This document shows, in pieces, positions 1-3,771 of a DNA stretch of 6,454 bases. The stretch is from a bacterium. GTDB lineage: Bacteria; DYJV01; JALVYZ01. Positions within the stretch are counted from its first letter, which is position 1. Every line of letters starts with the position of its first letter. The notes under the pieces are model-generated. The model was not told where the DNA came from, ran no database searches, and saw nothing but the letters and a program-made list of their open reading frames with translations. Position numbers and translations under genes: made by a program. The stretch spans positions 1-6,454 of the forward strand of contig JALVYZ010000414.1 in the NCBI GenBank assembly GCA_027037705.1. The letters are read 5' to 3'.

Positions 1-1067
1 ATAATTTTAATATTTGCTTCAGAAATATGTGGGGAAAGAGGAAGTGATATAACTTTATCAGAAATATTTTTTGCAATAATGTAGTCTTCTGGTAAAATGT
101 CAAATTCTTTCATACATGGTTGTTCAGGAATAGTTTTTTTATAAAAAATTTTAGTTTCAATTCCATTTTCCGTTAGAAATTTTTTTAGTTCATCTCTCTT
201 TTTAACTCTTATTGTAAAAAGATTATATGTATGGTAACTTTTTTCATCTTCCACAGGTAATATAATTTCTTCTATATCAGAAAGTAAAGTTTTATATAAT
301 TTAGCGGCTTTTCTTCTTCTTTCTAAAAAACTTGAAAGGTAAGCTATTTTAACATTTAAGATAGCTGCTTGAATGGTATCTAATCTTGAGTTAAAACCAT
401 GAATAATATGTTCCTCTCCTTGATAACCATGGTTTCTTAAAAGTAAAACATTTCTAAAAATTTCATCTGAGTTTGTAACAACAAGTCCTGCATCTCCATA
501 TGCCCCTAATGTTGCATTAGGAGAAAAACTAAAACATCCTGCATCTCCAAAGCTTCCTACATATTTATCATTATATTTTGAGCCAAATGCTTGTGTGCAA
601 TCTTCTATTAATTTAAGATTATATTTTTTTGCAATTTCAATAAATTTATCCATGTTACATGGATTCCCATAAAGATGTGTAACAATTATAGCCTTTGTTT
701 GATCATCAATCTTTTCTTCAACTTTATTTTCATCCATATTAAATGTATCAGGATTTATATCAACATAAACTGGAATAGCTCCAACATTGACAATTGCTTC
801 TGTAGGAGCAATAAATGAATAAGGAGTTGTGATTACTTTATCTCCTTTTCCAATATTACATGCTTTTAAAGCCAAAAATAGAGCGTCTGTCCCACTTCCA
901 ACTCCAACTGCATAGTTAATTTGAAACAATTCTGCAACTGTTGCTTCAAATGTTGAAACTTCTTCTCCAAGAATGAATTGAGCATTAAAAAGAATATTGT
1001 TAATTTTTGAGATTATTTCTGACCGAAAAATTTCAATTTCTTTATTGATGTCTATAAATGGTATCAT
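1..1067 (-). CDS. DegT/DnrJ/EryC1/StrS aminotransferase homologue lacking the PLP lysine (gnnB-like), C-terminus cut by window edge
   Basis: I translated 355 open codons on the minus strand from ATG 1065-1067; only a short C-terminal tail seems to be missing. AAGGAG at 1075-1080 precedes the ATG with 7-bp spacing, which fixes the start. The fold-type I sugar aminotransferase signature is clear: GSGTDA near residue 60, a THLYGNP loop, EDCTQAFGS with Asp156 (PLP N1 contact) and Gln159, then FSFSPNATLGAYGDAG. Family members read roughly SFYPxKNLGAxGDxG, where K is the Schiff-base lysine. Here that residue is Ala185 (GCA, 513-515). The offset from ArnB (Asp159, Gln162, Lys188, from memory) is a constant three, so the alignment is not in doubt. 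Such enzymes transfer an amino group from glutamate to a keto-sugar nucleotide in the cytoplasm. It follows and overlaps a Gfo/Idh/MocA dehydrogenase, an arrangement like GnnA/GnnB (UDP-GlcNAc3N for lipid A) or WbpB/WbpE. Without the lysine, ordinary transamination is not expected. The family is certain; the function is open. Confidence 0.93.
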   Translation of the reverse strand, partial: MIPFIDINKEIEIFRSEIISKINNILFNAQFILGEEVSTFEATVAELFQINYAVGVGSGTDALFLALKACNIGKGDKVITTPYSFIAPTEAIVNVGAIPVYVDINPDTFNMDENKVEEKIDDQTKAIIVTHLYGNPCNMDKFIEIAKKYNLKLIEDCTQAFGSKYNDKYVGSFGDAGCFSFSPNATLGAYGDAGLVVTNSDEIFRNVLLLRNHGYQGEEHIIHGFNSRLDTIQAAILNVKIAYLSSFLERRRKAAKLYKTLLSDIEEIILPVEDEKSYHTYNLFTIRVKKRDELKKFLTENGIETKIFYKKTIPEQPCMKEFDILPEDYIIAKNISDKVISLPLSPHISEANIKI

Positions 1068-2022
1068 TTAAATTCTCCTTTAAATTTTTCAGAATTTTTA
1101 AACTTAATTCTAAAGCTCTTTGTCCTGCTATCCCATCAACAACTGGTTTTTCTCTCTTTTTTATACAATTTACAAAAGAGCTAATCTCTTCTTTTAATTG
1201 ATCAATTTTTTCAGGAAATTTTAATTTTTTGTATTTAAATTTTGTTAAAAAATCAATAGGTTTTATTTTTTCATTTTCTTTTTTATTAATAGAATATATT
1301 TTAGCAAATTTTTTGTCAAAGTCTATTGAAATATATCTATTTTTTTGGAAAAAACGCATTTTTCGTTCTTTCTTTAAAGAAACTCTACTTGCTGTAAAAT
1401 TTGCAGTACAGCCATTTTCAAAAACAATTCTCACATTTGCAATATCTATTTTATCAGTTAAAACAGGGGCTCCTGCTGCATGTATAAATTTAATATTGTC
1501 TTTAACAAAATTTAACATAATTTCAATATCATGTATCATTAAATCCCTAATAACATCAATATCAGTACTTCTACCAGTAAAAGATGATATTCTTATTGAT
1601 TCAATAAACATTGGATTTTCAATATAAGATTTGCATGCTATAACAGCTGGATTAAATTCTTCAAGATGACCAACTTGCAAAATAGAATTATTATTTTCAG
1701 CTATTTTATTTAAAATTTGTGCTTCTTTAACTGTGGTGGTTATTGGTTTTTCTACTAATATATCTTTTTTATTTTCAAGAAAAAATTTTGCTATTTCAAA
1801 ATGGGTATTCGTTGGAGTTACAATAGAAACAGCGTCAACAAAAGGTAAAATTTCCTTATAGTTAGTTGTTTTAAAAATATCAGAGTAAGTATAATTTTTT
1901 AAAATTTTTTCATTAGTATCACATATTGACGTTACAATAACATCATTAATATCTCTAAATTTTTCAAAATGAAACTTTCCTAAATAACCAAGACCTATAA
2001 TACCAATTCTAATTTTTGACAT
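1042..2022 (-). CDS. Gfo/Idh/MocA-family sugar-nucleotide dehydrogenase, probably GnnA-like (UDP-GlcNAc 3-dehydrogenase)
   Basis: This 326-residue protein has the two-domain Gfo/Idh/MocA layout. An N-terminal Rossmann fold carries GIIGLGYLGKFH (residues 7-18), with Asp35 after the second strand, suggesting NAD(H). The EKP motif follows at residues 91-93 (Lys92 near the nicotinamide), then VGHLEEFNPA (117-126) and DLMIHDIEIML (160-170) with the likely catalytic His164-Asp165. The GHxExFNP and LMIHDI motifs recall the subgroup found in lipid A gene clusters (GnnA-like), which oxidises the 3-OH of UDP-GlcNAc. That substrate is an inference from motifs and from the overlapping aminotransferase homologue. 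The 26-bp overlap suggests translational coupling. The ATG at 2020-2022 has no Shine-Dalgarno; a TATGAT box at 2035-2040 lies so close that the message may be leaderless, though no good -35 accompanies it. WlbA/WbpB-type UDP-GlcNAcA dehydrogenase is the main alternative. Confidence 0.9.
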   Translation of the reverse strand: MSKIRIGIIGLGYLGKFHFEKFRDINDVIVTSICDTNEKILKNYTYSDIFKTTNYKEILPFVDAVSIVTPTNTHFEIAKFFLENKKDILVEKPITTTVKEAQILNKIAENNNSILQVGHLEEFNPAVIACKSYIENPMFIESIRISSFTGRSTDIDVIRDLMIHDIEIMLNFVKDNIKFIHAAGAPVLTDKIDIANVRIVFENGCTANFTASRVSLKKERKMRFFQKNRYISIDFDKKFAKIYSINKKENEKIKPIDFLTKFKYKKLKFPEKIDQLKEEISSFVNCIKKREKPVVDGIAGQRALELSLKILKNLKENLNDTIYRHQ

Positions 2023-2044: not shown

Positions 2045-2079
2045 AATATAATTGTAAATATTTGCTGAAGGCTAAAATA

Positions 2080-2724
2080 ATGAATGTTGAAGAATATTTA
2101 GAAAAATTTTATAAACTGGATGATTTAGAGAAACTAATTATTAATTTAGCTAATGAAACAAAGACTCCAATTTTGACTCTATCAAAAGCAAAAATTTTAG
2201 GTTTATTAGTAAAATTAAAAAATCCTTCAAATTGTTTTGAAATTGGGTTAGGAATAGGCTTTTCTACATATCAAATTTTAAAAAATATAAATGAAAATGC
2301 GCGATTAATAAGTATTGATAAGAATTTTCATAGAATTGAACTATTTTTTGAAAATATATATAAAAAATTTGATTTGAAATTAAAGAAAAAATTATCAGTT
2401 TATCCTCTTGATGCATTTTACTGTATGGATATCTTTTTAAATTTAAATCAAAAATTTGATTTTATTTTTATTGATTCTCAAAAAAGAGATTATTTTTATT
2501 TTTATGATTATTTTGTTAATTTAACTGAAAAGGATGCATTGATTGTAATAGATAACATAACTTATAATATGCAAACCTTTAAAGAAGTAACTAAAAGAAG
2601 TGAAAAATATATGGAAGGAGTTAATTTAGTCAAAAAATTTATAAATAAAATTTCAAATTCAGAACATTTTTTAAATTTTTTTATCCCAGCTGGAGATGGT
2701 ATGTGTTGTTTAGTTAAATTGTAA
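2080..2724 (+). CDS. SAM-dependent O-methyltransferase, YrrM/TrmR (COG4122) class
   Basis: The chosen start is ATG 2080, because GAAGG at 2067-2071 sits 8 bp upstream; an upstream in-frame TTG at 2062 has no such site. The 214-residue product has a small N-terminal helical part and one Rossmann-like methyltransferase domain. The SAM-binding motif is FEIGLGIGFST (53-63), with acidic Asp80 ending strand 2. FDFIFIDSQKRDY (126-138) holds Asp132 and Lys135, and IDNI (157-160) holds the Asp158-Asn159 pair that binds a divalent metal in caffeoyl-CoA-type O-methyltransferases. The tail IPAGDGMCC matches the family's closing strand. Bacterial members act on small catechol-like molecules or, as TrmR, on 5-hydroxyuridine in tRNA wobble positions; I cannot choose between these. 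It has its own promoter, diverges from the dehydrogenase gene, and overlaps the convergent small gene by 11 bp. Confidence 0.9.
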   Translation: MNVEEYLEKFYKLDDLEKLIINLANETKTPILTLSKAKILGLLVKLKNPSNCFEIGLGIGFSTYQILKNINENARLISIDKNFHRIELFFENIYKKFDLKLKKKLSVYPLDAFYCMDIFLNLNQKFDFIFIDSQKRDYFYFYDYFVNLTEKDALIVIDNITYNMQTFKEVTKRSEKYMEGVNLVKKFINKISNSEHFLNFFIPAGDGMCCLVKL

Positions 2725-2914
2725 CATTTACATAACTTCCCTTATATGATTCCTCTATTTCGTTTTGAGAAGTTTGAATTGCTTGTTGTTGTGCTTCTTC
2801 TTGCTGCTGTTCTTCTTCTACTTCTGCTAGCGACTCTGTTTCTTCATATCTATCATAATAATATTTATCATAATATAAACTATCAATATAACATGTAGAT
2901 GTGTCAATAGACAT
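2714..2914 (-). CDS. Small Tyr/Glu/Gln-rich acidic protein, function unknown
   Basis: This 66-residue protein matches no family I recognise. Residues 9-23 hold seven tyrosines mixed with Asp and Lys; residues 24-55 are dominated by Glu and Gln, including QQQEEAQQQ (36-44), and could form a polar helix or coiled coil. The short C-terminal end, GSYVNVTI, looks less polar and strand-like. The sequence counts 9 Tyr, 12 Glu, 8 Gln and one Cys (Cys8). There is no signal peptide or membrane segment, so it is probably cytoplasmic. I call it a real gene on its expression signals: a perfect consensus promoter (2935-2963) and a Shine-Dalgarno complementary to the whole anti-Shine-Dalgarno (2918-2927). 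It stands alone, divergent from kdsA and overlapping the 3' end of the methyltransferase gene by 11 bp. The strong signals suggest an abundant structural or regulatory protein; this is inference. Confidence 0.82.
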   Translation of the reverse strand: MSIDTSTCYIDSLYYDKYYYDRYEETESLAEVEEEQQQEEAQQQAIQTSQNEIEESYKGSYVNVTI

Positions 2915-2994: not shown

Positions 2995-3771
2995 ATGTAT
3001 GAAAAATTAAAACAAAAAAAATTCATAATTGCAGGTCCTTGTGTGATAGAATCATTGGATCTATGTTTTATTATAGCAGAAAAATTAAAATTTTTATGTG
3101 AAAAATATGGATTTTTTTATATTTTTAAAGCAAGTTTTGATAAAGCAAATAGAACTTCTATAAATTCATTTCGAGGTCCAGGTCTTGAAAAAGGTATAGA
3201 AGTACTTTTTAAAATAAAAGAAAAATTTTCTATCCCAGTAACAACAGATATTCATGAATCTTGGCATGCTGAAAAAGTAAAAGATATAATTGATATTATC
3301 CAAATCCCTGCTTTTTTATGTAGACAAACTGACTTATTAATATCTGCTGGAAAAACAGATAAAATTGTAAATATTAAGAAAGCACAATTTCTTGCTGGCA
3401 AAGATATGATTTATCCTCTTGAAAAAGTTAAGTCCACAGGAAATAATAAAGTAATTTTAACAGAAAGAGGAACTATGTTTGGATATGGAAATTTAGTAGT
3501 TGATTTTAGAAATATTGTTGACATGAAAGAATTAGGCGTGCCTGTTGTTTTTGATGCTACACATTCAACACAAAAACCAGGAGCATTAAAAGGAAAAAGT
3601 GGAGGAGATAGAAAGTATACTCCTTGTTTAACTTATTGTGCAGATGCTTGTGGAGTAAATGGATTTTTCTTTGAGGTTCATCCAGAACCTGATAAAGCTT
3701 TATCAGATGGGCCTAATATGATTAATTTTAAGATATTTGAAGAAATTTTGAAGAACTTAGCATTTAAATAA
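2995..3771 (+). CDS. kdsA: 3-deoxy-D-manno-octulosonate-8-phosphate synthase (KDO8P synthase), metal-dependent class
   Basis: KdsA condenses phosphoenolpyruvate with D-arabinose 5-phosphate to make KDO 8-phosphate, precursor of the KDO that links lipid A to the LPS core; it is cytoplasmic. The 258 residues cover the whole TIM barrel. Diagnostic motifs are IIAGPCVIES (11-20), FKASFDKANRTS, SFRGPGLEKG, TDIHE, QIPAFLCRQTDLL, NIKKAQF, FGYGNLVVD, FDATHSTQ, KSGGDR and VHPEPDKALSDGP. Cys16, His190, Glu227 and Asp238 match the metal ligands of Aquifex KdsA (Cys11, His185, Glu222, Asp233) with a constant offset of five, so this is the metal-requiring class; the E. coli type has Asn at the Cys position. 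There is no Shine-Dalgarno before ATG 2995, and the promoter places the transcript start at or next to the ATG, so translation is probably leaderless. The 3' end overlaps the convergent amidohydrolase gene by 15 bp. Confidence 0.97.
   Translation: MYEKLKQKKFIIAGPCVIESLDLCFIIAEKLKFLCEKYGFFYIFKASFDKANRTSINSFRGPGLEKGIEVLFKIKEKFSIPVTTDIHESWHAEKVKDIIDIIQIPAFLCRQTDLLISAGKTDKIVNIKKAQFLAGKDMIYPLEKVKSTGNNKVILTERGTMFGYGNLVVDFRNIVDMKELGVPVVFDATHSTQKPGALKGKSGGDRKYTPCLTYCADACGVNGFFFEVHPEPDKALSDGPNMINFKIFEEILKNLAFK

Follow-up and report, generated by a model that had tools for sequence, protein, structure and literature searches.

The question raised by this locus is what becomes of a lipid A aminotransferase when the lysine at the centre of its chemistry is replaced in nature. 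In enzymes of the DegT family this lysine forms the internal aldimine with PLP as a Schiff base and carries out the 1,3-proton shift, and to our knowledge its loss is known only as the Lys-to-His change of the 3-dehydratases and from laboratory mutants. The window, that is, the whole stretch of DNA analyzed here, is a contig of 6,454 bp, and the features on which the argument depends are the following:

3..1067, (-) strand: gnnB-like DegT/DnrJ/EryC1/StrS aminotransferase homologue without the Schiff-base lysine (Pfam PF01041, best PDB match 7b0d, G001 ortholog)
482..541, (-) strand: PLP-lysine motif, CFSFSPNATLGAYGDAG versus CFSFYPTKNLGCYGDGG in G001 (sequence comparison)
513..515, (-) strand: codon GCA (Ala185), where G001 has AAA for the catalytic lysine (alignment)
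1042..2022, (-) strand: gnnA-like Gfo/Idh/MocA dehydrogenase of the UDP-GlcNAc 3-dehydrogenase type (NF040723, PDB 7bvj, G001 ortholog)
2062..2724, (+) strand: O-methyltransferase-like protein between gnnA and kdsA, with no established link to them (PF01596, 82.8 bits)
2995..3771, (+) strand: kdsA, KDO-8-phosphate synthase, pointing to a lipopolysaccharide setting (TIGR01362 at 356.3 bits, over the cut-off)

The gene at 3-1067 belongs to the DegT family by profile (PF01041, DegT_DnrJ_EryC1, 350.9 bits) as well as by fold. The first-pass annotation had counted 355 open codons, and the frame is indeed intact over these 355 residues, but the stop codon is absent because the contig ends within the gene, and by comparison with the 366-residue ortholog of genome G001 the C-terminus is cut, with about 11 residues missing. 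The overlapping dehydrogenase that the same annotation had pointed out proved to be gnnA-like: it overlaps the start of gnnB by 26 bases, its nearest profile is that of the UDP-GlcNAc 3-dehydrogenases (NF040723), although its 174.5 bits fall short of the curated cut-off of 450, and it matches PDB 7bvj with an E-value of 1.4e-46. The gnnB-like gene itself matched no curated NCBIfam profile above its cut-off. In the pathway assigned to GnnA and GnnB, C3 of UDP-GlcNAc is oxidized and then transaminated to supply lipid A synthesis (PMC5644692). About 1 kb beyond the gnnA-like gene, on the opposite strand, lies kdsA. In G001 the gene order is gnnA-gnnB-lpxB, which assigns the locus to the lipid A pathway by way of UDP-GlcNAc3N, and kdsA is encoded some 5 kb upstream on the opposite strand. 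The window protein therefore has both the pairing with gnnA and the linkage to lipid A genes expected of GnnB, which it further resembles in its DegT fold; it differs from GnnB in having alanine for the Schiff-base lysine and YKK for the usual YP of the substrate loop, the latter also in G001. In the assembly of the window's genome, which is fragmented into 496 contigs, lpxB was not found, and it is probably to be expected just past the contig end. On another contig lie lpxD, fabZ and a cut lpxA that ends at the contig end; the fabZ of this cluster (L245:203-608) is interrupted by assembly N runs. Another ORF of the window (2714-2914, minus strand) encodes 66 residues with a high content of Glu, Gln, Tyr and Ser; it has a strong ribosome-binding site but matches nothing in Pfam.

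The PLP-lysine motif of the window protein reads GCFSFSPNATLGAYGDAG, and when it is aligned with 7b0d and further DegT enzymes of solved structure, Ala185 (GCA at 513-515) falls in the column of the Schiff-base lysine of the FSFxPxK motif, so that the replacement of the catalytic lysine by alanine, claimed in the first-pass annotation, stands. So does its statement that the remainder of the protein is well preserved, since Asp156, Gln159, Ser180 and the glycine-rich end of the PLP pocket are all kept, as are Asn226 and Arg228. The residues around Ala185 are changed too (Ser182 for Tyr/Phe, Asn184, and Thr186 for Asn), and nearly all of codons 182 to 186 differ from those of G001, which makes a single base-call error very unlikely, in agreement with the earlier argument against one. 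The column of Ala185 holds lysine in 100% of the other homologues of the comparison set. In 30 homologues, 55 columns are at least 90% conserved, and the window protein departs from them in 7 and the G001 ortholog in 4; the lysine column is the only one that is invariant in 30 of 30 homologues and changed in the window protein.

The changed codons have a further peculiarity: a perfect inverted repeat with 7-base arms and a 3-base spacer (CCTAATG-TTG-CATTAGG, window 505-521) lies exactly over them. A templated (hairpin) mutation was considered as the cause and set aside, because, suggestive as its position over the motif is, the AT-rich window has many repeats of this kind, 20 of them with 7-base arms and spacers of 0-7 bases; a pair of frameshifts was rejected as the source of the changed block, since the codons do not fit. 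An assembly or sequence artefact at the motif is in our judgement quite improbable. The 496-contig assembly, a contig end only about 510 bases from the motif and the repeat spanning the changed codons would all favor it, but the frame and the flanking conservation are intact, many bases differ together and repeats of this kind are common in the window.

The next point is how widely the change is shared. G001, a member of the same order and the only other genome of the phylum compared, has a gnnB ortholog 59% identical to the window gene whose motif, FSFYPTKNLGCYGDGG (FSFYPTKNLG), keeps the lysine, as do the other homologues read. A scan for this motif in which the lysine codon is replaced by one not beginning with A, run over 386 genomes and a second set of 387 with 228 new ones (614 distinct in all) and therefore blind to A-initial codons (Asn, Thr, Ile, Met, some Ser and Arg) and to motifs degraded elsewhere, gave two DegT proteins, the window protein and one in genome G265, the other matches not being DegT proteins; Lys-bearing motifs of the same form were present in 82 of 116 genomes. 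No homologue above 45% identity to the window protein came from plasmids, phages or viral contigs, and where viral contigs matched the non-Lys motif, the protein was never of the DegT family. The lysine loss, read in the window lineage from a single assembled genome, is specific to that lineage within the genomes compared, and the observation is real and uncommon. The two cases are unrelated and each stands among Lys-bearing relatives, which include G001 and the three closest relatives of the G265 protein (73-74% identity), and the distinct lysine-less subfamily that had been suggested at first is not borne out. The first-pass annotation had also named, as an outcome that would overturn its reading, close relatives with lysine and the window strain alone changed; this is largely what was found, although the nearest relative available is only of the same order.

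What the protein may still do is suggested by its predicted structure. The AlphaFold2 model (41 sequences; mean pLDDT 96.4, pTM 0.94) is closest among solved structures to 7b0d (TM 0.97), WlaRG, WbpE and QdtB, and it lies 1.0-1.6 Å from Lys-bearing enzymes and 1.4 Å from WbpE K185A with PLP. Replacement of the Schiff-base lysine by alanine is a standard crystallographic trap, made to freeze DegT enzymes, and four such engineered proteins are among the PDB matches: WbpE K185A with PLP, WlaRF K184A with TDP-Qui3N, GDP-perosamine synthase K186A with a sugar ligand, and ArnB K188A with PLP and UDP-Ara4N. WbpE and its K185A mutant (PDB 3nyu, 3nys, 3nyt) have the same fold (rmsd 1.4 Å), and the mutant has the identical Lys-to-Ala change, its alanine standing at the exact position of Ala185; the window protein differs in that the change is natural, the substrate likely lacks a C6 carboxylate and the identity is about 35%. 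By this analogy, the window protein is probably a natural counterpart of the trap, expected to take up PLP together with the amino sugar and then stall, and the earlier idea of a PLP-binding pseudoenzyme appears to fit the Lys-to-Ala crystal mutants.

The first-pass annotation had stated that known lysine-less members use histidine, and this agrees with the 3-dehydratases ColD, E1 and SpnQ, which share with the window protein a DegT fold without the lysine, and which use His as acid-base together with PMP on 4-keto-6-deoxy sugars (PMC8987622). These enzymes are a precedent for activity with a different chemistry, be it through PMP and another base or through slow transamination by Lys310/Lys311 of the substrate loop, where the window protein and the Lys-bearing G001 ortholog both have FYKKTIPEQP (residues 308-316) in place of the usual [HY]YPxPLHLQ. 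We regard such activity as very improbable. Residues 184-186 (Asn-Ala-Thr) offer no acid-base residue, the position of the histidine being taken by Ala185; the YKK loop predates the lysine loss, since the G001 ortholog has both YKK and the lysine; and the dehydrogenase partner points to a 3-keto substrate and not to the 4-keto-6-deoxy sugars of the 3-dehydratases. Nothing supports the suggestion, made earlier, that the fold is used for a new reaction.

The rate of evolution was compared as well. Between the window's genome and G001 the identity is 59.0% for gnnB, 58.6% for gnnA and 57.3% for kdsA; the window protein averages 39.9% identity to other homologues and the Lys-bearing G001 ortholog 39.6%, and their end branches are 0.48 and 0.45, respectively. 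By these protein-level measures, silent sites being expected to be saturated at such a distance, the window gene is not accelerated relative to its Lys-bearing ortholog. The rest of the protein shows no sign that constraint has been relaxed, which would be strange if the enzyme had died long ago and is compatible with a loss of recent date as well as with a role that has been kept. That an ordinary gnnB has only just lost its lysine in the sampled population, and will decay, would account for the lysine in every close relative seen and for the clustering of the changes in five codons with no other damage. We consider it unlikely, because several substitutions within five codons are required, more than a single point mutation, and because a similar cluster with the same serine arose independently in G265.

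This second case concerns a DegT protein (L059:957-2051, L230:6046-7140) whose motif is LSFSPGRNLGCYGDGG, with arginine at the lysine position. Its gene lies directly before lpxB, with further lipid A and core genes after it, and no gnnA-like gene is beside it within the 14-kb stretch read. The three closest relatives keep FFPSKNLG with its lysine and also adjoin lpxB, and between these relatives the G265 protein (73-74%) is more conserved than the adjoining LpxB (60-65%); the end branches here are 0.24 and 0.19, and general decay is apparent in neither lysine-less gene. The tree requires two separate lysine losses. The G265 protein thus resembles the window protein in the lost lysine, the serine before the motif proline, the lpxB neighbor (for the window, by way of G001) and the lack of rate acceleration, and differs from it in its independent origin, in Arg versus Ala and in having no gnnA-like neighbor. 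In 162 Lys motifs, some of them duplicates, the residue before the proline is Tyr, Phe, Asn or His and never Ser (0/162), so that serine may mark lysine loss, a lead from two cases and not a rule.

The G265 protein bears on the possibility that lysine-less GnnB has been selected as a partner, which would either pair with the Lys-bearing WbpE-like enzyme or, by binding GnnA or the product of GnnA, exert regulation or channeling. In the DegT family two subunits together form each active site, and Asn226 and Arg228, which in this family serve the active site of the neighboring subunit, are kept in the window protein; the rest of the protein evolves at a normal rate, the gnnB-gnnA overlap is preserved, and the independent Arg case before lpxB has the same serine, no acceleration and a conservation above that of LpxB. 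Nevertheless, no lysine-less clade exists, both cases being single lineages among Lys-bearing relatives, and the physical partner is conjectural, so that we hold this role to be possible but rather unlikely. The broader proposal, that lysine-less GnnBs arise repeatedly and are selected as pseudoenzyme partners of a Lys-bearing 3-aminotransferase or of GnnA, with the serine before the proline as their mark, also seems to us unlikely.

Our preferred explanation, to which we give roughly even chances, is that the GnnB of this lineage is an aminotransferase left dead or trapped by a natural change, any 3-amination that persists being the work of a Lys-bearing WbpE-like enzyme. The overlapping GnnA would make UDP-3-keto-GlcNAc, which GnnB should convert to UDP-GlcNAc3N for lipid A. 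With alanine in place of the lysine of the internal aldimine and the 1,3-proton shift, GnnB should still fold, dimerize and bind the nucleotide sugar as well as PLP or PMP, in the manner of its engineered Lys-to-Ala relatives, but it should not finish the transamination at a useful rate. A candidate to replace it is present: the window's genome (G000) encodes two other strong DegT proteins, both with the lysine, and one of them, on contig C9 (L035:550-1653; motif PAKPLGCYGDGG), is nearest to WbpE (E 2.6e-114). Its gene overlaps kdsC and diverges from an HPr kinase-RapZ-PTS gene cluster, and the 5.4-kb contig carries no sugar dehydrogenase next to it. In G001 the strong DegT matches number only two, gnnB and one on contig C2. 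The C9 enzyme could serve GnnA, with its substrate guessed from similarity, and would be the most likely source of any 3-amination; a small residual chance of binning error attaches to this, the reported contamination being 3.3%.

For the prediction of lipid A structure, these results are a caution, since a 2,3-diaminoglucose lipid A predicted from the presence of gnnA and gnnB alone can be wrong. For the family, a natural Lys-to-Ala change in a preserved lipid A gene, together with an independent Lys-to-Arg change in the same setting, would allow one to test whether aminotransferase pseudoenzymes are retained because they serve some purpose.
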